Shown in pieces: positions 1-64,000 of a stretch of DNA of 64,000 nucleotides (within the stretch, counting starts at the first letter, position 1; each line of letters begins with the position of its first letter). Source of the DNA: Lepidurus packardi (Eukaryota; Arthropoda; Branchiopoda; Notostraca; Triopsidae). The position numbers and the translations under genes were made by a program. A model generated the notes under the pieces. That model worked only from the letters and a program-made list of their open reading frames with translations. It had not been told where the DNA came from and made no database searches. The DNA lies in contig JAKZAN010000005.1 in NCBI GenBank assembly GCA_023053545.1, forward strand, positions 7,564,001 through 7,628,000, written 5' to 3'.

Positions 1-2788
1 AAGTGTCACGCTGAGCAGACCACCTGCTTAGTTATTTTTGCTTGGGAATATAGAAAACAATCTGCCGGAGACCACCTCCTCCCTTCCGCCTTGTAAGAGA
101 AGTCCTTATGGTAAATTTCACAATGAAACAGTACGCATGTTGCGTTACGGTGTGCTATTTCTGGGGTTAGAATTCTTGTAGGGAATTGGTATGAGAACAT
201 AGGGAGCGAGAGACAAATTGCCATGAGCCCTTTTTGTACGTCCATTACATGTGTTACTTATCTCACGTTAGCCACAGGGGTCTATAAAGAAACTTTTTAA
301 TTAATGAAACCCTCTTTAAATAAGAAAATTACAGAGATTCAAGGTCTTGCATAATGCATGTAGAGAAAATAAGAATAAAAGATTCATACGTACACAACTT
401 GCGAAACGTTATGTACTCAGTGAGTACTCAGATCTGAAGCTAAAAGGTGAAAAATTTAGTTTTCGCTATGGAGATTGATTTATATCCCGGTATTAACATT
501 AATAGTTCGGTTACGTTCGTTTCGCTTCACTTCCGAGTTTCCTGAAACCGAATTTGTTTACAATTTATTGTAGTATTACGTTCGAGATTTCAGGAATATT
601 TCTTCTACTTTCTTCCCCTCTCCCAAGTATCTGATATGGGATATAGTTTTTTTTCTTTTCTTTTTTTCTGTATAGAGATGATTTATGACCTGAATGGGCT
701 TAGGATGACACCAAGTAAGCAAGCACTTTTTTTTATCTTTTTGTGTGTTATGAAAGTTGAGGTTGACAGACGGTTCTCTCTTACGTTACAGTGTGATATA
801 AAAAAGACGTGGATTTATGATGCATTTTTTCTGTTGGCCACTTAAATTAAAGAAAATACGCTTAATTACTGATATTTTTTTCTTTTGTTTGTTTGAAAAA
901 CCTGAAAGACTCCTGGACTAGGAAAAGATACGAGCCCAAAGAGCGCGAAGCGTGCTAGTTGTAGAAGTCGCAGATTTTTTTGTTTTTTGGGAGAGAAAAG
1001 GACAGTTTCAATCACTCCTAGATTTCCATAGAGCTTTTCTAGCCTTTTATCTTCCTGGTAACAAACGTTGTGTTCTTTTCGCTTGAATGTATGCAAAATG
1101 TCTTGCGAATTTTGGAAGGAGGCTAACTTTACTTAAAGGGCTTTACATTAAAGTCCCTTTCTAGTCATTTTCTAGTCATCTTCGAGTGACTCAAAACTGT
1201 CGCATTGGAAGCTGCGATTACTTGTAAAAGATCTATTAAATTCAACGGCTCCCAAGTATCCACTATGAAAACTAATATATTGAGGTATAGATCAGTTGGG
1301 GCCTTTTAATATCGCCTACTTTGAGGGTTTTATGAGAACGGACGCACACTACAATTCACTGATTACGTAACTCCATTAGGAAGACATATAGCAATTACGT
1401 CATTCACCCGCAATCTTTCAAGGGGTGTATAAAAAGACCTCGTCTTTTCTCCGCAATCGCATAGGCTGTAGCCGACATGTTAAGGTTAATTCTGTTGACG
1501 AGTTCGCTCTTGTGTATACCCGCCCACTCCCAAGTGAGCTTTTGTTGAGCTTAAAGGGCGCCCAGTAATGTGGCCTATGCCAAACCATACGTCGTTTCGC
1601 TCTTTTTTCGCCTTTTTACATAAAAAGACGAACAAAAGTGGTCGTATTGGCGATGCTTGTTCTCCCTTTCGTCGTTATAAAATGAACTAAAAGCCTAAAA
1701 TAAAATAGCTTTTTTTTTTTATTCGTGCAAAGGAATAAAAGGGCAAAGTAATTAAAAGTAATCGGGAAAGGCTTTCTGCCTAACTTCGAGGCTTTATTTC
1801 TTTCATTAAAAAGTAAAATAAGCCAGTAGCGGCGGAAGTTTGCTTCGCAGCATGTATATACGTCACTGTCTTGGAGAGTCGATTGCTTCGTCACAGTCAC
1901 GGTCTGGAGAGTAAGCAAATATGAAGAAATTCGCTGCTAGCGATACTTGCAACACCCTGGTGGGTGTGAACAACTGTAGTTCAAAGTGACTTTGCAGAAA
2001 TTAAACGTTTCTGGTTAGAGAGAAAAGGTTACAAGCAACAGTGACGCAGTTTGAGTCAACTTTAATGGAATAATAAGGCACTTGCCCCGTAAAAGTACAG
2101 AGTGGAAACTTTTTTTGTTTGGTTCTACCTAGGGGAGTCTTGTGTTACCACTGATGAGATGTTGGTATACATTTTGATGGTGAAATAAATGTTTATTTTT
2201 ATTTCTAGTGTTTTTAATAAAGCTCATGTGTTCTTTTGTGCAGCAATTCACGCCCATCTGAAGGCGGGATACGGATATTATATATCTTAAAAAGGTAGGG
2301 TGTTGGGTGCTCGAAATAATTAAGCCTGGCTTGCTTTGTCACATAACAATGCTGGCGACGTCTACGACCCTTTTTCAACCTAAAAGGAAAGTTTTTTTTT
2401 TGTGTCCTGTATGTAAAAACGCTGTCGTCCGTATAAAAGGAAAAGAAGCAAACGTTATTTAAAAGATAAGGTTATGCCCTGATTAGCCTACTCCTCTTCT
2501 GATAATAACTCGTGCGGAGCTTCGGATTAGTTTTAAAAAGCTGAAAAGAAAATTGTCTCCGAGAGTACTTAATAAGGAATGTCTCATTATGCAATGTACG
2601 TTCAAGCTAGGTGAGTTTAGAAGTTGGCTGTCGAAAACTTTAAGAAATCCTTTAGAGCAGGATTAGTATATCCCCCCCCCCCCTCTTCTTCTCCTCCTCT
2701 TCACAGGGGGAATATCGAGAGACTCGCGTTGTATTGGCTGAGATGCTGAGTTGGTGAAAAAGAGGTAGAAAAAAGAGCTTTTGCTTAC
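1..2788. other. Non-coding, probably intron 3' of the Ig exon
   Basis: No open frame here has recognisable protein similarity or convincing splice ends. A C12 run at 2,672-2,683 is followed by a TCTTC/TCCTCC pyrimidine-rich tract beside the Ig exon. Since the Ig exon reads leftward and ends with a donor, this stretch is best read as its downstream intron. Confidence 0.55.
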
Positions 2789-2997
2789 CGATGACAGTCA
2801 AGTTGACGTGCGCATTTCTGGATTTGGCGTCTCGGAAATCGACTCGACATCGATACAAACTTTGGTCGGCAATAGTGACGTTGCTCAGGGTAAGCACTGC
2901 CGGTTGCAAATGAGCCATGAATTTGGCTCGCCCTTTCAAAACCTCGTTGTCGTACCATACCAAGGCTTCCGTCACCAGAACATCCCGTGCGTCCGCA
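2789..2997 (-). CDS. Sidestep-family Ig V-set domain, internal exon (C-terminal half)
   Basis: This 209-bp exon lies between acceptor TTTCTCATTTTAG and donor CATCG/GTAAGC, phase 2 in and phase 1 out. It codes for about 70 residues running from ADARD through WYDNEVLKGRAKF, PAVLTLSNVTIADQSLYRC and RVDFRDAKSRN to VNLTVI. The D-x-S-x-Y-x-C pattern marks the F strand of an Ig domain. The YRCRVDF...RN..VNLTVI signature and the upstream DAR block are those of Sidestep-family cell-surface receptors, which pair with Beaten-path proteins in axon guidance. The N-terminal half of the domain (first cysteine and core Trp) must be in an upstream exon at higher coordinates, and further Ig domains should lie left of base 1. 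I could not find either. Which paralogue it is cannot be told from one exon. Confidence 0.82.
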
Positions 2998-3093
2998 CTA
3001 AAATGAGAAATAAATTCAAAACTTATCAATAGTAGTCGAAAACAATATTTCTTTTACACTGTAAAAAAGTAAATTTTACTGATTCTGCAATAA

Positions 3094-45559: not shown

Positions 45560-48500
45560 AGTCCATACGAACGGTCTGGTTTCGCAATAGGTCATTCAGT
45601 TCCTTTTCCTTTAGTAAAAACTTACCAATTTTGGTGCACACAGATCAAAAACATTATCTAAAAAATTATTATTCGGTCTCTGTGACCTCCAACTTGGTAT
45701 ACTTTATCCATTTGGAGTATCTTAATTGTATACTATCGTTAAAATTGAAAGCACTCGCCAAAGTTTTAAGTTTTCTCTTATTGTAATTAATAAATTCAAA
45801 CTATTCACTCATATTATGCAACTTTCCTTCGGATTTTCGTCATTTTCCAACACGCAGTGAAGAGTTCAGCCAGTCAATTTCCGAGTTCCCGTAAACGAGC
45901 ATTGTGCATCGTATTCCGACAATTGCCGGCCCAAGTTATCCGTATTCATGAATGCCTCTTGCCATGCTGTGCCGTGCGGAGCATAGCGTAACAAATTAAC
46001 ACATTCAATGTGTCACTGTTACTTGTCACGACTCAGCGAACTGTGCGACTTCCTTGCGTGAAGCGGTTTGACTTGTCTTGTCTTCTTTTTTTGCTGTAAA
46101 ATCCATATTTTGTGAGGACAAGTTATATTCCACAAACCTGCATTGAGTGTTTGAACGCGTTTTTGTTTTGAAATTTCATTTGCGCGGAGCAATAAGGAAA
46201 ATTAACGGGGCAGAGATGGATTTGAAGGTAGCAGAGAAACCGAGGCGCGTGTGAAGTTGAAATATGTACATGTCGGCAAGAAAATGGGGAGTGTCGTACT
46301 TAGGAAGTTGTCATTTGTCAACAACTTTAACACGCCCATAAATAGTTGACTACCCAGCTTTTTTATTTGGGATGAGGAAAGTCTTGCAGCTAGCGACAAA
46401 ATGTGTCAGCAACCCCTAAAGTATGGAAGGGGGGTCTCTTGTTCTAACCAGAAGAATAAAATAAATGGAAAAAGTCGCTAACAAAGGTACGGTGTCAAAT
46501 GTACGACAAATACATGGCATGTGCAGTCTTGCATGGTAAATTATTTATAGAATTCCAGGAAGCAAATATCATCACAGCTTTCGCAAACTAAGTTTGCCAT
46601 TGGCAACTGGACACTCCCACATTTCGTGATCCACTTCATATGAATTGTTGCTTTAATTCCTACGTGTAAAGCTCCTGGGGTGGTTCCTAGAAGGACATGC
46701 ATCTTTCACAGGGCAATGAACCGTAATCCCGCACGAAAAATAATAAATGAAATGCAAGAAAACTGTTAGAAAATGGGAACCTTTTTTCTTTTATTTCTCG
46801 GTTTTTATTTTCGGCGCAGCCTTAATATCCCAAGAATCTGGGGAAAGTGCCCTGGAAATTAGGTTTAAACTTACGGACTTTAATACTGTCTGAGCTTAAT
46901 AAAAAAAACTGTATGATGCATTCCTTCTTTTGCTAAGACGTCGCGAGGATTTCCCAGAAAAACCGCACATTCAAGTGCTTCGTGTAGATGTAAGAGTAGA
47001 CATTGCAGTGTTCCGAGCACCAAAGGCACTGAGGCGCAGATAACGAGTATACTTTGATACGGACTTTGCTGAGTGAAGCGAGAACGCGTATTCTTCCCGT
47101 TTACGCCGTATGCGTTTTCATAGAAGTGATCTTTTACACTTTGCTCCTTGTCCCTAACCACCCCTTCCCTCTCTCTCATCATTAATGACCTGAAACAATT
47201 TATCCAAGGTCCGAAGGTTGAAGCTACAACATTTTTCACGCTGTTATAGTCATAAGGTTTATGTTCCTAGGGTTACCTCTTATTTTTTTAACATAAAAAT
47301 AATGCCCAACGGAATCGAAACGGGAAAGAAAGATCAACCCCGAGACACAAAACAAGGATAGATTTCCCTTGCCATATATCATGGTCCTTTTACTTTATAT
47401 TTACACTATACACTGGGTTGTATACTTATTTTTTCCTTTCGTTGACCCAAGATGCCCAACAGGAAATGCTGTTTTCGTTAGGTGAAGCGAAATTGAGTCT
47501 GACTGATGATGTAGTTAATGGACATTTACCCTCCAATTCACCTTAGGTGGCGTATGTGAGCGTTGACTTTCCTCCTGTGGCAAGCAAGCAGCACTCCCCG
47601 CGTTACTTGTTATGAGCGCTCTGGCAACGCGGTCCGGGGCTCTGGATTTTAAAGTTGAAAACCCATAAATGAAACTCCCATTAAGGGCAGTTAAGGGGTT
47701 CAAAGAGACGCTTATACAGAAAGAAGGATCCGGGATCCGGTAAACTTGACTACTCCTACTCTTCCCCAGTTTTCGGGTCTCGGGCAAATGGTACATGGCT
47801 GACATACCCCTAGGGAATCAATACCTGCAATACCAAGACTATGTCCGTTACGAAACCTCAATTGACTTTCACGATAAGATTAATTTCTGCAATCCGACAG
47901 ACATAAAAACCAATTCGCAATAACTTGTTTGGTGTCTTTCAAAACTTGACCGTATATATCACAGTTATGATCAAAAGTTATGAGTTGCAGTGATTCATTT
48001 TGACATGAAAAGGTTCAGTGTCAGCATGGAATAGTTAAGTGCAGCTGATTCCCTTGTAATTATTTCTTACTCCCTGCATGATTGTTTTCAGGAGGGTGTC
48101 GTACATAGCATCGTTTTGCGGTCATTGCGTGAAGTTTGACAAACCGTTGATTCTGCAGCACGCCAATACCGTAACTCATTTGGTCTTTGAGTTTTGGAAT
48201 AACACATTGCGAATTCATCGTATCACTACCATTTGACCCCCTCTTTCATAGTAGAAATTCAGTGTAGTGTAGTTAAATGAAACCAGCAGAATAACTACTG
48301 GACAATTGTTTTATGTACGTACCCGCATATTTATACCACGTTAAATTTTCTTACATCAATCCAAGCTCATTCTAGTGACACTAGATTCTTTGAATGATAT
48401 TGCCCCGTCTAATAATGGTAAAGAAATTTTCTCGCTAATATGGCAACCAACTCTTAAGTTAGGCTGTGAAAAGCACCTGCTTTTCATAAGTTGCGAATCT

Positions 48501-51500
48501 CTTCCAAGGAATTCCAAAAAATGACATTGGTTTCCAAACGGGCACCGCCCAGTGTACCAAGACGATGCTGTCATGTCAAGGCTAGAAACTAGTTTGTCAT
48601 TTTTTGCAATCTGGCACTTGACCAGTGACTAAATATGTACATCCGAGTTCCGCATGGTAAACTTGAAGCTCTCCGAAGATTATTGTTAAAGAATACATAA
48701 AAGCTCTACAGTGTGTCGCAAAAGACGGTCAGAAATGGCGGCAGTAATTTGTAAGCATCTGCTCAATACTCTCTTAACCCTTGGAAACAGCACGTTGTAT
48801 AGCTAATGAAAACTGCTTAGCGCCGAGCATCATCTTACCTGGGAAAACATTTTATATTTTGAGGGAAACATGAAACGTGTAGGGACAAAATCTTCGAAGA
48901 CCCTTGTTATTTGGGATTCATTGGTAGTTTTAGCACAGAACTGTAGGTAGGGCTCAGCAACTCTCTGTATACTAACATTGCTAATATAATTCGGCATCGC
49001 CACCTAACGGTTGTGTACACAACTAAAAATGGGAAAACTTGCCACGGAAAACGGAATTTTGATTGTGATCACAAGTTAGGATTTGATTTACAAAATCTGT
49101 CGCTTTACTTTTTTTCGTGATCCCAAAAATTAAATATCCTCGACTGTGTAACCCTAGGCTGAGTAAGAACAACGTTTGAACCTCGTGCGATTGGCTGTGG
49201 AAGAATATAATGTTTGTCACAGGGGATTTGAAGATCTACGATCGCAACCATACTTACAGGCGTCCTTTAATGGGTGTTTTCGGGTACGCATGGATAAAAC
49301 TAAAAGTAATAGATACTTTGCATATTCCTTGTAGATTCTTTCTGCTAAAAATATAACATGGCCCTACGAAGCAACTCATTCCTCTCGCACACAACAAGAA
49401 CATGGCTCGATTTTCTAGGAGGCTAATAGCTTGGCATTTGAACTGAAGTGTCCCCAAAGGACTGGACTTTCAGGTTTTTTGCTTCTTTTCTCATTGAGTA
49501 AGGGATCTTGAGATAACGGTTTAGCAGGCACTATATAAGGAGTCGTGATAAAATATGGTTTGTGGTTTCATCTTTCCGTGCATTGCAAATTTAACGTCGA
49601 GTATTGCTTTCTCAAGAGTTACATCGAGAACGAATGCGAACCTTTATGGAGCTAAGGTTTTCCACTTCTATGACGCTAGTAATGCTTTTTCCTATTCGCA
49701 GAGTTGAAAGACTCGATGTAACTCACCGACCCATTTCCTCACACTGTAAAAAGTCTTGTAAGTTTATACTAAATTCATGTGATTTTTGTTTCGATTTATT
49801 AATTGCAACTCTGTTTGTTACATATTTCAATGGCAATTTAACACACATTTCGGAATGATCATAACATCCAAATTTCGTTTTTGTATGGCTAATTTCAATC
49901 TTCATTGGAATTGCCAAAGTACATTCCAGGTACCTGAAATTGCTTGCCGTGTAGCGCTATGTATTTTATTTTTATCGAACGGGATTTGATGATTAGTGCT
50001 GAGGGTGATGGCAAGAGGCGTTGTAGAGGTTTCTAAGGGAAGTTCAGTTCTCTTAATTACTCCACTTGGAGCCCGGATAAGCTTGTTGTGTAAGGTTCTG
50101 TCGTGAAGATACCGGTTTTCATATTAGTTTTCTGATGTCTGATGAGGCATCCGCAGCTCATCGATCAATTTTTCTTACAAGAGATGTTGACCATCAAGGA
50201 TCGAGGGACGTGTAGACTGATTAGCCTCCAATTTTCTTCCATCTGGCGTTCCCTTCATTCCGATTGTTTCTTCGACTCCTTCCAAAGACAATAACTTGAG
50301 ATTTGACCCAAGTTATGGTAGTAGTGGGGCTGCATCTTCAATCAATCAGAAACAAAAGACTCGAAACCTGAGGATAATAGCCATTCGACGTCTCTTTCCA
50401 TGCGTTAGTCTTGTAATTGTTAGGATAAATAGACTGACGTTTTATTCCAAAGAGAACAGTTTGGTATAAAAGAGAAGAGTTGTTCGTTCTTACGAAAAAT
50501 CCAAGTTGCTGGTTTCTTCGTACTTTATTTAATAATCTACTTCGGTTTGCTGTGGATGCTATGCATTGAGTTTCGAACATAAGTTCTGGGAGAGGTGTAG
50601 TGAATAGGAGAAAAAGTTAACTTATTGACAAAAAAATAGTACCATCATACTGCGTTTCATCTTTTCTTTCCTGTATTATACGACTTGCATGGAACTTTTT
50701 TGGATCTCTCACCCTCTCACTCAAAGTTTGATTAAGCTTCGTATGGTGTGCACAGCTCCACGCGATTTGTCTGTGCCAGTTCAATAGCTATATTTTTGCT
50801 AAGTTTCTAACAATCGGTTTGATATATTAACTGTGGCGTTGACTAGCGACAGAAAGCGCTTGGGAGAAGGCCTCAGAAGACGCTCTTGATGGCTATAATA
50901 TGGGAGGACGTACTCGTCGACACACCCGCATATTATGTAAGCAGCCTCGTTTCTCATTGTTTTTACGGTGGAACTCGTCAAGTTAAACAAAGACGGTACT
51001 TTACTCCGCAATTAGAGTCTTGGTTGGCGCATGGTTTCCCTCTGTCTCTCCTCTCCTCTCTTTCTCTCCGAAGTGTGGTTTAACGTGTCCTTGCCTCATC
51101 GTATCAACTTCAGTCTGGTGCCCTTTTGAGATAGTCCTATTATAGATGATGCCAAAGACGAAGGTTTATGGCCGAGCCTAGCTGCGCCTAGATGAGATTA
51201 AAAGTGTGCAAAATTTCTCCATTTCGGTCTCAGTGAGCAAAAGAATAAATGAGGAACAATAAAGAGATCAATTGAGTCGTGTAAAACATATCAAATTGCT
51301 ACGTCAAGAGCATATATCCCGAAGCTGGTGATGCTCTCCGCTGCTGCAGCTAACTTGTTTCAGAATGGGGCGAATAATAATATTAGCTTCCATATTGCTC
51401 CTAGCGTCAGTGTATAAATGGCCCACGGTAAGTCGGAATGCACTTTGGGAGGCAATTCGACGACACACCCAACAGCAAGCAGCAAGTTCCTCATTGCCCT

Positions 51501-58348: not shown

Positions 58349-58488
58349 TTACGCTGTCATGGGAGCTTGGGAGCTGGGTGTGGAGGAGCCGGAGTGGGAC
58401 TGGCCTGACAGGGAGTGGGCGGACATATCGTACCCACAATGACGTGCCTGTGTCCGTTGGATCTCGGTATGGTTCCGACGCATGGGAT
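58349..58488 (-). CDS. TGFBR3: TGFBR3 exon L: cytoplasmic tail and stop
   Basis: This terminal coding exon starts after acceptor CTGCTTCCACAG (phase 1 in), and the stop codon TAA occupies 58,349-58,351. The tail is rich in Ser and Thr and contains SAHSLSGQSHSGSSTP, aligned with the vertebrate AAHSIGSTQSTP. It ends PMTA. Vertebrate betaglycan ends STA, a PDZ ligand for GIPC. The 3' UTR continues leftward. By eye I saw no AATAAA on the minus strand between about 57.2 and 58.35 kb, so its end is not placed. Confidence 0.92.
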
Positions 58489-61400
58489 CTGTGGAAGCAG
58501 AAAAACATAAGTTAGAGCACGCTCTCATCACCCTATTCTCTTTTTCTGTTCCTTAAAGCTGGACTATTGATATGTCAGACGGCAGAAAGGAGGGGGAAGC
58601 ACCATGATAGTAAAAAGCATAAGTAAAAAAAATAAATAAATTAAATGGCAATTTGCTTGCAAGGAAAAAGGATCGATGCTGGATTAAATTTAAAAAAGGG
58701 ACGATGGGTTTTTGTTTGCTGGAGCTTATTTTACGTGTTTTAAAATGAGGAAAATGTCGTTTCTTCTAAGGCTAAATCAAACGCAATGTCTGTGTTGTAA
58801 GCTTGTTTGGTGTTTGTGGGGTGTTTTCGTACCTGTTTGGGCGTACCTGTCTTTAAATGTATGCACCATAGTAGCGCTGTCAAGGCAGCGCCAATGACAA
58901 ACGAAGCTAACGCAATGCCTACAGCCACTTCAGTCGAGACGCCCACGAGGATGACTTGGGTACTAGGCAATCCAGCGTTAGCAGGAGGCAATGAACCATT
59001 GCCATTCAATTTTCCCGCTGACATGTCAGTAACAGCCTGATGAGACGCTGTAAAGTACAATATGGGGTGTTAGACGCTAATATTTACGATATTCGGCGCT
59101 CCTCAAGTAGCTTACTTTGCACTGAAAGGCGAGAGACCATGCGCACAGGGCCTCGGACGAGCATTTGCTGAGCGGTCGAAATAGACTCGTCCAGAAAAGG
59201 CTTCAAAATATGACGAGTACAATACTGATCAGGGTCCACGCACTAAAAAGTATAAAGGCGATAAATTTGAGTTCCATTATGGTAGATGCCGCGTATAGAG
59301 CAGGTCAGTAAAACAAATACAGTTCTTGAATTCATGGTCGCCAAGCACTTTCTTTGCTTTGACCTTTTGTTTGTCAAGGAAGAGGGTTTAGCTTCGCTAC
59401 TAAGGAGCATTTATTTGACTGTCCTGTTCCTTAAATTAACTGGAGAGTTTAGAAGGGACAACATTTAATTGAATGACCTGCTCCTGTAATTAACCAGGGA
59501 GTTTAGAATGCTGGTTAATTAATCCACATCTAGTGGGTGTAGTGCATCTAGAAAACGGAGACTCTAGAAAAAATGTAGAAAGTTTGGGAAAGTGTCAAAA
59601 AGTAGACGATGCTTTGTTTCTTTGGTTTAAATAGGCAAGTAACCTATTTTCGGTAATTAGAATCTCCTCTTAATATAATCAATATTCACTTGACAAACGT
59701 AACTACAATTAGCGGCATCTACTCTACTTTGAAATTAGTTACTTAATCGCTAGGTAAATGATTCCATTCAAACCCTTACCAATTTCAAGTTGCCCTGCGT
59801 CCGAGAAGGGTCCTTGGAACACAGTCCTAATCTGCAATGCACAAAGAGCTGGCCCATGTCCGCGTAGTCTTTGCTGACCTATTGAAAAGGCGAAGTCATA
59901 AGTACACGTACACCATAAGCCGTAAGTACAAGTACACTTAGTTACTTCGTTCAAGTATGATTGACAATACCCCCTCCCCCCCCCAAGAAAAAAGAAAACA
60001 AAAAAAGGAAAGTGGAGGACTAGGAGAAACGCTAGAAAGATTACAAGGTTTACTTGGAAGCTGAAAGCCGCGTAGTTGTCTGACGTCTTGGACTTGATTT
60101 GTACCGACAGGTCTGCCGGGCATGTGTTTCGAATAAGAATTAGTCTGGATGGCTTGGACGCGTCAGAGGAGTTGGACACCCAGCACTTTTCAGTAACAAT
60201 TTGGATGAAGGGAACTAGAAGCGGAGCGTAAAAAAGAAAACATCACATAATTTGATTCCCTCGTCTCAGATATCTCGCTCTATTTTTCTAATACATACCT
60301 CCATCAATCCATGTTTTCACGAAAAGTGTGTCATCGTAAGCGACTTCAGAGCCAGCGGCACTTCGATGCAGCGCAACCTGAAACTCCTTGTCCCGGTACA
60401 GTTCCATATGATACAGTTCCATTTGGCTCCCATTCACTTCCACTGGATCCTTTTTTTTCGCAAAAAAATGCAACATAAGCAAGAGCTTGCTACAGAGCTG
60501 TATAGTACGATTAATACCAGAACGTTATCGTCGTCCGCCCCTTCAAATCCTCCGCCCATCATGCGAAATTCTGGCTCGTAATGGCACTGTAAAGGGATCG
60601 TCACATGGCGCGAAGGATCCGGTGGTGTTCCAAACGAAAAGCCTGCATGACCCGAACCCTCCACCAAGTCTTCATCATCGGTATCCACACCGCCCAGTTG
60701 CAAATGAAGCTGCAAGGAGAGCATAATTGTTAACAATAGAAAATCTAAAGCGATTGAAAGCGACTAAATTGGGTTGAGGTTCGTTTTTCTTTTCTCGGGG
60801 AGTTTAACAAAAGGATATTTATAGTGAAGGCATCGGTGCGTACCATATTGCTATAGGTGGTTACTTTGCCATCGGAACGACTCGTACTTCCACAAGAGGT
60901 AATATGGGATTTTATGGTCCAGTGCGTAGCATTACGCATCCCCAAGCAGGCCCGATCAGTTAATGTTAAGCCCACCACGCCCAAAGGGTCTGCGATGGAG
61001 CGAGGTAACATTGCTACCATATGGCGAGATCCGCACAACAATCGTAATGCATGCTGGACGCTGGCACTCGGATTTCGGATTATATCTACATTTTTTACGA
61101 GTTCCCCATAAAATACAAAAAGAAAAAAGGGAAAAAAAGCAGGATTAGAACTTGTTATCACACGAGTAAACGATATAATGTTTGTGTCCATGTTCATAAG
61201 CTGGGAAATCCACAGCAGACACTTTCGTTGAACAATTACTTCGGGCAGTAGATTGGGTAGATTTGAGTCGTTCCAAACTTCGGACCCCCATTTCCATAGA
61301 TGGGATGCTGGCCAGTGTGTTGGTCCCTGCTGCAACCGTTTCGGGTTTGTTGTCCGATGCATAACGAACCGGTGACAAGCCTAGCGAGGATGAGTCAATT

Positions 61401-63354
61401 TAGGGGGGGAGTAAAAAGAGCCATATTAGGAAACATGCTGTCATTCCGCTGAGCTTCGCGATAGCACAACTTCCAATATACTGAAGGGGGAAGGCTATAA
61501 AGCTGTCACTTTTATTACCTGTTCCTTTCTTGCCTATGACCAATTCCAAACGTGTTGCCAAGTCTGCTTTGACGTACGACACGGGTGGCCCCAATTCGGA
61601 TGTCACATCCAAGATGAGGAGGGCAAAATTGTCGGGAAAACGCTGACTTCGCACTTCGAGGCTCTGCAGGGCAGAAATCCCGTTGTTATACACCTCGCAG
61701 TCGCTCTAGAAAACCCAAGATCCCGAATGTTTTACTCCCACACGCAATTATATAGTTACACTCTACACGCAATACATATATACGGTTTCGGAATAAAAAC
61801 CGGGGGAAAATAAAGACAGAAACTCACTAGGAGAGGAAAAGATGATTAGGGACGTGACACAGAAAATGGGAAGGGAAAAATCGAATTTCTTTTTCTGAAT
61901 AAGGGTACAGGGAGAAACAAAGAAATCTTGTTAGTTACCATGACAATTAAAGATCCGGCTAACTGAGGCGCGGAGCTAAGTAGCCAACGCACGGGTGTGC
62001 GCGCTTTGAGCACCAAAGTCAGATCACGAGATTCGTTTTTCTCAGTCTCTGTCACTGTCAAGTGCACGGTGACGTTGGGCATCCCTGAATTGGTCGAAGT
62101 GGAGACCCGGTCCACTATATGGATATCCCTATGGGGCGAGATTAGCATACGTTAACGAGTATAACTTTTATTCATTAAAGTATTCATTAAGGCCACGGTG
62201 TACTGGAACCCATTATGGCGCTACAGCATTGCAAATTTTCATTCGAAAATTCTCATTCTCGGTGCAAATATAATGAAACTGCATTGTGACAATAATGCAG
62301 GGGATGTATAAATCTACTTTACCTGCTGTTTTCAATTTTAACATTGGTTTTTACTAAATTTTTCCATTGTGTTCAAGTTATGAAAGTTTTAAATAAACGA
62401 TTTATCAAAATCTTAAGAAGCAGGTAAAGTTATTGCTAATAAGATATTTTTAGAAAAAGAATTTCGACGATCTCTTTCTGTTTCTTTTAATTTCTTGTTT
62501 ACAGTTTATGAAATTACGATGAGAAATGGTCTGACATCAGTACCGTCTTTTGACAACAAATTCTCAACCATTTGCAGTACATCGTGGCTAATGAAAGTAT
62601 CGTGGCTAGGTAAAGTTACTAATGAAATTAATCCTAATTTAAATCGTAAAAATTCAAACGTCCTTTAGCAATGTATTTAACGGTCTTGAGCCAGGTTTAT
62701 ATAGACTATTCGGGATATTGAAAAAACCTGGGAGAAGAAAACGGGATATAAGCTATTTCTATCCGATACTACACAGCAGGGTGTTTGTAAAGAATACGTC
62801 AACGCAATTAGTCTTACTAACGAAAGTTTACTGTATGTATAAAAAGCTACTTTTACAAATACTATACTACCCAGAAATACTCTACGCTATCTAGGCCAAC
62901 ACCCTTTTCCAGCCTTTCGGGTCTTCTGCGCCCCAACACAGACCCCAACAAAACCATCCATCTTCATCGATCACATTTCTAGGGCAAACTGGAATGAATG
63001 TTTTTCAGGAGCCATGCTTGGGGGGGAGGGGTGCAAGGCAAAAAAAAGTCTGATTTAGTTCGTACTTATAATAAGTACTAGGGACGTTCGAATAAATGCA
63101 ATAACACAATTCCGGGGAAGAAATAACGCTTAATTTTTCAAACTTTTACTCACATAAGAGAGCGCCAAAAAAAAGGAAAAAAAATCGAGAAGACTTGCTA
63201 CTAAGACTACCCCGGAGTTTGATTAAAGATCAAAGAGTCTTTTTATTCCGATCCCCCCCTTTGCTAAACGAAATTGTGTTTTCCGTGTCGTGGTTGGTCA
63301 GAAACGCTTGTGCCTTCATCAATAATTCATGGGAATCCCAAACCTGCCTGCCGC

Positions 63355-63393
<39 letters not shown>

Positions 63394-64000
63394 CGGGGTA
63401 GGGGAGGGAAAAAGCGGGGGAAAAGAAACGAGCAGTGAAGGGCCCAACAGCAGAACGCGAAAAAATAGTTTCTCCTGTGGAGAGTTAGTGGATTTCTCAG
63501 AATTATTGTGAATGCAGGACAATCAGCAAGGGAATGGTGCATTATTGATTGCGATCCCTGACGAGCAGTACTACTACTATTACTACTCTCTCTTCTCTGA
63601 GAATAATAAAAGGGCGCCCTAGAAAAGAGGGGGAACTGAGTAAAAAGTCGTGAGTTTATTTGATTTGAAATTGCCCCTAAGGCTTAAACCCCAAACTGAG
63701 TCCCTGGCGACTAATATTGCGACTAACCGAGCAGAATCGTTGATGAGAATAAACCACGTTAGTTTCCATTTGTCTTGTGTCAAATAACATGAAAGGAAAA
63801 CATTGTGGTAAGGTTACGTTTTAGCTTTCTTTTCCTTTTTTAAAAAGAGATAAAAAAAATTAAAAAAGGGAAAGAAAGAAAAGAAGAAGGATGGAAATAT
63901 ATGCCCATACCTGGGATTAAGCCCAGCAGAATCAGGATGAAAGCATCCTTCGATATGTGATTCCTCCATGCGATACCCGTCCATATTAGGACTTGTCGTC
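58349..64000 (-). CDS. TGFBR3: Betaglycan / TGF-beta receptor type III homologue, 12 exons, 5' end beyond the window
   Basis: Betaglycan is a single-pass cell-surface proteoglycan that binds TGF-beta-superfamily ligands and presents them to type I/II receptor kinases. The twelve exons listed separately join into 639 codons plus stop with all splice phases matching. Domains in visible-residue order: second part of the orphan region (1 to about 200), ZP-N with four cysteines (about 203-330), ZP-C with six cysteines (about 395-505), transmembrane helix (about 567-589), Ser/Thr-rich cytoplasmic tail (590-639). Colinear matches to vertebrate betaglycan as I know it include EGC before the B exon, the NATHW sequon beside NGTHF, LFVHCRLGLC beside LFLQCELTLC, CVDPDQYC beside CVPPDEAC, and ASFVIGAALTALLW beside AAFVIGALLTGALW. 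Vertebrate betaglycan is about 850 residues, so roughly 200 N-terminal residues, including the signal peptide, should lie right of 64,000. Introns are 68-537 bp except the first visible one (1,782 bp). Endoglin is the main alternative, but the TM and tail fit betaglycan better. Confidence 0.93.
58847..59047 (-). CDS. TGFBR3: TGFBR3 exon K: stalk and transmembrane helix
   Basis: This 201-bp exon lies between acceptor TGTACTTTACAG and donor AAGACAG/GTACGC (phase 1 in, phase 1 out). A Gly/Asn/Pro-rich stalk is followed by a hydrophobic helix, VAVGIALASFVIGAALTALL, which matches the betaglycan transmembrane segment nearly residue for residue, and then WCIHLKT. A second donor 14 bases downstream (CAAACAG/GTACGA) exists, but it would leave phase 0 and not fit the last exon. 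Confidence 0.95.
59116..59242 (-). CDS. TGFBR3: TGFBR3 exon J: last ZP-C cysteines, membrane-proximal stalk
   Basis: This 127-bp exon lies between acceptor ATACTTTTTAG and donor GTGCAAA/GTAAGC (phase 0 in, phase 1 out). It starts CVDPDQYCTRHILKPF, matching the vertebrate CVPPDEACTSLDASI and giving the final two ZP-C cysteines. The stalk that follows includes RGPVRMVSRLSVQ, an arginine-containing stretch that could be protease-sensitive; that is only a suggestion. Confidence 0.92.
59408..59515. repeat. Two diverged 54-bp tandem units in a TGFBR3 intron
   Basis: Unit 1 (59,408-59,461) and unit 2 (59,462-59,515) share ATTTAaTTGAaTG, CCTGnTCCT, AATTAAC and GGGAGTTTAGAA in register. The repeat lies in the 537-bp intron between TGFBR3 exons I and J. 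Confidence 0.8.
59631..59727. mobile_element. GATCAC-family inverted-repeat element, copy 2 (deleted)
   Basis: The left part ATAGGCAAG...CGGTAATTAGAATC and the right part TCAATATTCACTTGACAAAC followed by GCGGCATCTACT align with the two ends of the 12,763-12,936 element (ATAGGCACC...CGGTATTAGGATC; TCAATACGCACTTGACAAAT then GCGCCACCTACT). The interior is missing. It lies in the TGFBR3 I-J intron. Confidence 0.55.
59780..59878 (-). CDS. TGFBR3: TGFBR3 exon I: ZP-C
   Basis: This 99-bp exon (33 codons, phase 0 to 0) lies between acceptor TTTTCAATAG and donor AAATTG/GTAAGG. It codes for DMGQLFVHCRLGLCSKDPS, a close match to the betaglycan block LLFLQCELTLCTK, and supplies two ZP-C cysteines. A second AG six bases inside the exon (GGTCAG) could also serve as acceptor and would remove two residues. 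The frame differs from that of the longer open frame covering the same region. Confidence 0.93.
60054..60214 (-). CDS. TGFBR3: TGFBR3 exon H: ZP-C
   Basis: This 161-bp exon lies between acceptor CTCCGCTTCTAG and donor TTCCAA/GTAAAC (phase 1 in, phase 0 out). It holds two ZP-C cysteines in TEKCWVSNSSD and LILIRNTCPADLSVQ, and ends YAAFSFQ. These match the vertebrate IQTCFIS, YTIIENICPKDESVK and KRFSFVF blocks in order. NSS is a possible glycosylation sequon. Confidence 0.93.
60299..60449 (-). CDS. TGFBR3: TGFBR3 exon G: start of ZP-C
   Basis: This 151-bp exon (phase 0 in, phase 1 out) has donor GATGGAG/GTATGT. It codes for NGSQMELYHMELYRDKEF and ends near FVKTWIDG, matching the first ZP-C strands of betaglycan around NMELYNTDLF. 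The acceptor is unusual: it is the AG closing an A8 tract (CGAAAAAAAAG/GATCC), with the pyrimidine tract upstream of that. An alternative AG five bases downstream would break the phase with exon F. The intron before it is only 68 bp. Confidence 0.85.
60518..60709 (-). CDS. TGFBR3: TGFBR3 exon F: end of ZP-N, GAG-site-like linker
   Basis: This 192-bp exon (64 codons, phase 0 to 0) lies between acceptor CTCTCCTTGCAG and donor GTTCTG/GTATTA. It starts in the last ZP-N strands, carries an acidic Ser-Gly stretch DTDDEDLVEGSGHAG, and then VTIPLQCHYEP with the fourth ZP-N cysteine. The acidic Ser-Gly segment sits where vertebrate betaglycan has EDLESGDNG, a glycosaminoglycan-attachment region. An acidic EGADDD run follows near the exon end. 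Confidence 0.91.
60844..61085 (-). CDS. TGFBR3: TGFBR3 exon E: ZP-N
   Basis: This 242-bp exon begins after a pyrimidine-rich tract and acceptor AAAAATGTAG and ends ATG/GTACGC (phase 1 in, phase 0 out). It carries three of the four ZP-N cysteines, in LLCGSR, RACLGM and ITSCGS. The last is the counterpart of the NGCGT block of vertebrate betaglycan. LTLTDRACLGMRNATHW aligns with the vertebrate LLDPTCKAKMNGTHF, and the Asn-X-Thr sequon falls at the same place. Confidence 0.92.
61240..61380 (-). CDS. TGFBR3: TGFBR3 exon D: linker to the ZP region
   Basis: This 141-bp exon lies between acceptor TCCTCGCTAG and donor GCCCGAA/GTAATT (phase 1 in, phase 1 out). It codes for a Ser/Thr-rich stretch with RYASDNKPETVAAG and MGVRSLERLKSTQSTAR. 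This kind of sequence is expected in the poorly conserved linker before the ZP domain. The frame stays open about 90 bp past the proposed donor before a stop, so the 3' boundary was chosen by phase agreement with the conserved next exon. Confidence 0.7.
61519..61705 (-). CDS. TGFBR3: TGFBR3 exon C: orphan region
   Basis: This 187-bp exon lies between acceptor GGGTTTTCTAG and donor GGAACAG/GTAATA (phase 0 in, phase 1 out). It opens with SDCEVYNNG and contains LLILDVTSELGPP. Direct similarity to vertebrate betaglycan is weak here. The assignment rests on position, phase continuity and an uninterrupted frame between two well-matched neighbours. Confidence 0.78.
61939..62128 (-). CDS. TGFBR3: TGFBR3 exon B: orphan region
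   Basis: This 190-bp exon lies between acceptor CCCCATAG and donor ATG/GTAACT (phase 2 in, phase 0 out). Residues DIHIVDRV and LVLKARTPVRWLLSSAPQ correspond in order to the HIIELI and LILKCKKSVNWVIKS stretches of the vertebrate second orphan half-domain. NVT and NES are possible N-glycosylation sequons. The upstream intron (62,129-63,910) carries a 400-bp transposon copy and the 34-C homopolymer. Confidence 0.9.
62191..62589 (-). mobile_element. 400-bp GGCCAC-terminal MITE, copy B, in TGFBR3 intron
   Basis: The ends are GGCCACGGTGTACTGGAA at 62,191 and, on the minus strand from 62,589, AGCCACGATGTACTGCAA. The interior is the reverse complement of copy A at 37.86-38.26 kb with scattered substitutions and small gaps. 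It sits 63 bp upstream (gene sense) of exon B, inside the 1,782-bp intron. Confidence 0.83.
63358..63391. repeat. 34-base uninterrupted poly-C tract
   Basis: Thirty-four consecutive C on the plus strand (G on the TGFBR3 sense strand), followed by AACGGGG. It lies in the first visible TGFBR3 intron. Poly-Pro and poly-Gly frames through it are artefacts of the homopolymer. Confidence 0.93.
63911..64000 (-). CDS. TGFBR3: TGFBR3 exon A (partial): orphan region, ends NPR
   Basis: The exon enters from beyond the right edge. The open frame reads from 63,999 downward and contains HIEGCFHPDSAGLNP, matching the EGC block that precedes the second orphan half-domain of betaglycan. The donor is CCCAG/GTATGG at 63,910. 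The exon ends after two bases of an Arg codon (phase 2), which fits the next exon. The two other frames of this piece contain stops. Confidence 0.82.

Follow-up and report, generated by a model that had tools for sequence, protein, structure and literature searches.

A probable arthropod betaglycan (TGFBR3) in the genome of Lepidurus packardi

A gene on the minus strand of contig JAKZAN010000005.1 of the notostracan Lepidurus packardi (assembly GCA_023053545.1) appears to encode an arthropod orthologue of the TGF-beta co-receptor betaglycan (TGFBR3). Its 3' part lies at one end of a stretch of 64,000 nucleotides (positions 7,564,001 to 7,628,000 of the contig), which was analysed as a whole and is here called the window; all exon coordinates are those of the window, continued on the same scale beyond its edge. 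The complete model, predicted from the DNA, encodes 854 residues in 16 coding exons, one of them a candidate first exon. Accounts of betaglycan usually invoke TGF-beta2 and inhibin. The reading that we favour, at a probability of roughly 75%, is that the arthropod protein would be a single-pass, kinase-less proteoglycan that captures a nine-cysteine ligand of the TGF-beta family as a co-receptor.

Kinship with betaglycan

The identity of the protein was assessed by searching PDB sequences, at E values up to 10, with the whole protein and with the orphan domain alone (residues 31-366). The best match of the whole protein was human TGFBR3 (7lbg, E = 5.5e-24), in two colinear stretches that cover residues 20-363 (orphan domain) and 425-709 (ZP). 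Seven of the 14 distinct sequences recovered were TGFBR3, and the remainder were five uromodulin sequences (best E = 3.4e-6), one GP2 (0.011) and one ribosomal S4e (0.58). With the orphan domain alone, TGFBR3 accounted for four of five sequences (three orphan-domain chains and the whole ectodomain, E = 5.9e-14 to 3.5e-12), while the fifth was unrelated and at chance level (E = 0.35). Endoglin (ENG), described as sharing the same overall architecture (PMC11865472), was rejected as an identity for this gene, as no endoglin chain was among the matches of either query at E up to 10; endoglin structures do exist, e.g., 5hzv (PMC7456536).

The two halves of the ectodomain support this assignment separately. 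Against a fragment of human TGFBR3, the orphan domain reached a local score of 185 and the ZP module 163, compared with means of 35 (sd 5, maximum 51) and 33 (sd 4.7, maximum 50), respectively, for 300 shuffles of each query. MAFFT identity to human TGFBR3 was 77 of 316 positions in the orphan domain and 75 of 268 in the ZP module. The arthropod protein is colinear with the human and rat chains in these alignments, while in the best-scoring stretch with the zebrafish chains the first arthropod subdomain pairs with the second zebrafish subdomain; the two subdomains of the orphan domain resemble each other. A Pfam scan of the 854 residues placed ZP-N (PF23344) and ZP-C (PF00100) over their cut-offs and after the orphan domain, and returned no further domain, and no kinase, at E up to 1.

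In arthropods, most ZP proteins belong to the apical matrix, and the genome holds five other ZP-C places (L001, L002, L003, L005 and L006), cuticular-looking by eye, which share the ZP-C domain with the gene described here. These circumstances would favour a cuticular-type matrix protein, unrelated to TGF-beta signalling and betaglycan-like through its ZP module only, but such an explanation is highly improbable given that TGFBR3 is the only above-chance match of the orphan domain. A single cuticular-looking ZP protein, L002, was searched as a control and had no PDB match at E up to 10, TGFBR3 included, and ZP-protein status alone therefore does not yield TGFBR3 matches. Further, a furin motif (R-x-K/R-R) is present in each of the three ZP frames checked (L001, L002 and L006) and absent from all 854 residues of the betaglycan-like protein, so that a membrane receptor fits better than a released matrix polymer. 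It should be noted that L005, located 0.5 Mb away, was considered as a possible paralogue and set aside, its exons being cuticular-looking by eye. A search of the genome for the ZP-N family gave two other places and missed the betaglycan gene, whose ZP-N spans two exons.

The membrane-proximal half of the protein has the features of a single-pass receptor. A transmembrane helix follows ZP-C, where the top 19-residue hydropathy window (2.34) covers residues 786-804; the 12 most hydrophobic windows of this length that were listed all fall at 773-806, and 50 residues follow position 804 as a short, kinase-less tail with a Ser/Thr-rich end. The helix and the AHS...STP tail presumably resemble those of human betaglycan. 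Within ZP-N, the acidic Ser-Gly motif EGSGHAG aligns with the human ESGDNG stretch, and the protein probably carries a glycosaminoglycan chain. The likeness to vertebrate betaglycan thus extends to the order of orphan domain, ZP-N and ZP-C, the Ser-Gly motif in ZP-N, the one transmembrane helix and the short Ser/Thr-rich tail. The differences consist of the low identity (24-28%), replaced orphan-domain contact residues, a divergent FG loop and a shorter binding loop. Together, the orphan-domain and ZP-module matches to TGFBR3 and the single matchless control uphold the betaglycan identity put forward in a preliminary description of the window, and at the level of sequence an orthologue of betaglycan is supported.

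The same description had suspected an arthropod genome, and this is supported by Chitin_bind_4, an arthropod cuticle domain with at least 150 places in the assembly (150 of 266 candidates were scored), some of them on the betaglycan contig. The assembly comprises 108.56 Mb in 344 contigs, the contigs C1 to C5 being 12.5 to 14.0 Mb in length. The published non-vertebrate betaglycans considered here come from deuterostomes (PMC11239237, PMC10381214), which would agree with contamination by deuterostome DNA, but the gene is situated inside a contig of 13.49 Mb that bears arthropod cuticle-domain genes as well (C4:3999363-4003962), and contamination is scarcely credible.

Gene structure

The reading covered 58349-64000 on the minus strand and a further 34 kb of the same contig, with open frames listed to 90000; the sequence beyond the window was included because the first exon of the preliminary model touches the window edge. 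The twelve exons of that model (E4-E15, 64058 to 58349) stand as described, with GT-AG introns, consistent phases and an in-window coding part of 1921 nt that yields 639 residues and a stop codon ending at 58349. They make up the 3' portion of a gene that extends past the window edge: E1-E3, outside the window, keep the same frame and supply the remainder of the orphan domain. The human TGFBR3 counterparts of their motifs GCASR, EVHML and RYKAVTSYSEV are, in the alignment, GCASR, EVHVL and EYGAVTSFTEL. The earlier title names the ZP module, transmembrane helix and tail only, all of which are present; roughly half of the orphan domain is also encoded by the twelve exons (E4-E6). The 5' end of the model is a candidate exon (E0), the better of only two candidates in a scan of 66950-98000 for an ATG, a hydrophobic core, a good donor and the right phase. 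This exon and the E7-E8 junction are the least certain parts of the model, for which the exons, all on the minus strand, are as follows.

E0, 85123-85033, minus strand: tentative signal-peptide exon, from the scan for ATG, hydrophobic core, donor and phase
E1, 66897-66770, minus strand: orphan domain, by frame, phase and alignment to TGFBR3
E2, 66696-66502, minus strand: orphan domain, by frame, phase and alignment to TGFBR3
E3, 64277-64106, minus strand: orphan domain, by frame, phase and alignment to TGFBR3
E4, 64058-63911 (63911..64000 in the window), minus strand: orphan domain with the PPEC...EGC cysteine pair, by splice sites, phase and TGFBR3 alignment
E5, 61939..62128, minus strand: orphan domain with the equivalent of the TGF-beta binding loop, unconserved in sequence, by splicing and alignment
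E6, 61519..61705, minus strand: end of the orphan domain, by splicing and alignment
E7, 61240..61380, minus strand: linker that joins the orphan domain to the ZP module, by splicing and without a domain match; its 3' splice choice is the least certain
E8, 60844..61085, minus strand: first part of ZP-N (PF23344, residues 435-543, 29.2 bits against a cut-off of 24.7)
E9, 60518..60709, minus strand: second part of ZP-N, with EGSGHAG aligned to human ESGDNG
E10, 60299..60449, minus strand: start of ZP-C (PF00100, residues 575-690, E = 2.2e-16)
E11, 60054..60214, minus strand: ZP-C with the retained equivalent of asparagine N82, by Pfam match and alignment
E12, 59780..59878, minus strand: ZP-C with LFVHCRLGLC, by splicing and alignment
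E13, 59116..59242, minus strand: ZP-C cysteines and the divergent FG-loop region, by splicing and alignment
E14, 58847..59047, minus strand: juxtamembrane stretch and transmembrane helix (top hydropathy window 2.34, residues 786-804)
E15, 58349..58488, minus strand: cytoplasmic tail AHSLSGQSHSGSSTPSSQAPMTA and stop, by reading frame and splicing

A second GT donor is located 14 nt past the donor of E14, at GTACGCCCAAACAG|GTACG (58846-58833). Its use would move E15 (58488-58349) to another open frame with a proline-rich tail ending PAPPHPAPKLP, a possible alternative splice that would replace the conserved tail. Two features of the introns are recorded separately: a THAP-domain frame (L008; PF05485, E = 2.7e-14) at 77978-77532 on the same strand, inside the proposed first intron of 18 kb, and an uninterrupted run of 34 C at 63358-63391 between E4 and E5.

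Ligand contacts and candidate ligands

Vertebrate betaglycan is reported to grip TGF-beta through its orphan domain and ZP-C and to pass the ligand to the kinases, and in the zebrafish orphan domain each of the substitutions F49A, L210A, L213A, F250A and D253A abolishes TGF-beta binding (PMC11865472). The five zebrafish residues were placed by counting along the printed chain, and all five, as well as the loop PNSSSAFQ, fell as expected. In the alignment every one of them is replaced in the arthropod protein (by P, S, M, G and N, respectively), and the binding loop is shorter than in human and rat betaglycan. For ZP-C, where numbering was checked against the residues named in the same paper, the reported contact positions P71, D72, E81, K86, D88 and E130 are aligned with A, S, R, A, L and R (PMC11865472). 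In the FG-loop stretch, inspected by eye, no counterpart of the A158-I161-W162-M165 helix was evident. Residues that hold TGF-beta are treated here as a property of the ligand and not as defining the family.

With this architecture, the ectodomain would capture a dimeric ligand of the TGF-beta family, as in vertebrates, and would make it available in concentrated form to the type I and II kinases. This ligand would probably belong to the nine-cysteine set encoded here, namely activin, myoglianin, Maverick or a Dawdle-like one, an expectation that follows from the mostly changed TGF-beta-holding residues and from the fact that no TGF-beta proper was recognised. A search for receptors with Activin_recp gave a single place, interrupted by a stop.

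The ligand domain PF00019 was found at 12 places in the genome, read as ten genes (two are split over two matches each), three of which (L014, L018 and L020/L022) were compared with PDB sequences. L014 is activin-like, with a match to inhibin beta A at E = 9.6e-38, and the best matches of L018 and L020/L022 were BMPs. We take L018 (C4:2844443-2844745) to be Maverick, L020/L022 (C5:6441873-6442248) to be Dawdle-like and L015 to be myoglianin. Nine cysteines occur in L014, L015, L018 and L020/L022, seven in four further genes and six in two partial ones; the ninth cysteine of L018 is well ahead of the usual start of the domain, and the domain proper holds eight. Nine cysteines are reported as common to TGF-beta, activin beta and Maverick (PMC4564238). 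When the ligands were aligned without gaps on their last cysteines, the TGF-beta2 set I92-K97-E99-L101-S102-N103 was whole in none of the ten genes; L020/L022 has K97, L101 and N103, a single residue of the set is present in each of L014, L015, L016 and L018, and the other five have none. A gapped alignment gives L020/L022 E99, L101 and N103 without K97, and the exact residues it shares are uncertain because the two alignments differ. Among the seven-cysteine genes, L012 (C2:10867891) and L013 (C2:10150383) are closely similar BMP-like ligands on the same contig and are likely a duplicate pair.

Several observations weigh against the co-receptor reading or parts of it. N82 of ZP-C, which is described as essential for TGF-beta2 binding in vertebrates (PMC11865472), is retained in the alignment. 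Because identity is low, it is uncertain which residues correspond within the gapped binding loop, and the loss of TGF-beta contacts is no proof that another ligand is bound. The control L002 matched no ZP structure whatever, so TGFBR3 was not scored and ranked below other structures for it. Finally, E0 lies 18 kb away from the remaining exons and was placed by phase, hydrophobicity and donor only.

The retention of N82 beside five changed orphan-domain residues also bears on a variant in which the betaglycan orthologue binds through ZP-C only and the orphan domain acts as a scaffold, a mirror image of endoglin, where ZP-C scaffolds the orphan domain. Mammalian inhibin A is reported to be bound by ZP-C alone (PMC11865472), which would agree with this variant, but ZP-C differs at P71, D72, E81, K86, D88 and E130 and shows no evident counterpart of the FG-loop helix, and we regard the variant as unlikely. 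Under the favoured co-receptor reading, the arthropod betaglycan probably serves activin-, Dawdle- or Maverick-class ligands, to judge from the sequences.

The preliminary description stated that betaglycan has been studied almost entirely in vertebrates, which holds with the limit that echinoderm betaglycans are in print (PMC11239237, PMC10381214). One TGFBR3 gene is reported in each echinoderm (PMC10381214), and tagged sea urchin betaglycan is reported to co-precipitate with Panda (PMC11239237), a Maverick/GDF15-like ligand (PMC4564238). As published, the echinoderm betaglycan (TBR3) is single-copy and has a Maverick-like partner (PMC11239237, PMC10381214), and it resembles the arthropod gene in being a non-vertebrate betaglycan. 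A difference is that TGF-beta sensu stricto is present in the sea urchin as well (PMC4564238). An earlier tree in which insect Dawdle groups with inhibin alpha is cited by a 2010 study, as a hypothesis for testing (PMC2832003). Based on the ligand residues, this tree and the Panda co-precipitation, an activin-class ligand, above all the Dawdle-like one or Maverick, is the best guess for the native partner.

A broader and more tentative proposal is that betaglycan may have been inherited from early bilaterians and may first have partnered nine-cysteine ligands of the activin, Dawdle or Maverick type, with TGF-beta and inhibin binding through the orphan domain and ZP-C gained in deuterostomes, and with the Dawdle-like ligand or Maverick as the native partner here. 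A full-length arthropod betaglycan with changed contacts, accompanied by no recognised TGF-beta proper in the genome, would imply that the receptor predates the protostome-deuterostome split. The question of the original ligand is directly testable in an animal with a small genome and about ten ligands. Non-vertebrate betaglycan is already known from echinoderms; no arthropod one was found among the titles and abstract openings listed in searches of an open-access library on betaglycan or TGFBR3, though sequence databases may well hold automatically named entries. Drosophila is not known to have a betaglycan. In the Drosophila work PMC10597583, the fly cells expressed a TGF-beta type III receptor of human origin.

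Cuticle-domain clusters and the rest of the window

The cuticle-domain matches form dense clusters at C3:1.77-1.82 Mb, at 0.42-1.06 Mb of C3 and at C1:9307846/9314012/9320178, several of them with identical scores. The three matches on C1 are equally spaced, by 6166 bases, and the identical scores and equal spacing suggest recent duplication. Within the window, the region from 3 to 58 kb looks gene-poor, based on eight frames chosen by eye and scanned, the best of which is a CCCH zinc-finger match under the cut-off (48359-48628, minus strand, E = 0.00057). An exon-like frame at 2655-3053 on the minus strand has an immunoglobulin V-set match, also under the cut-off (E = 0.00027).

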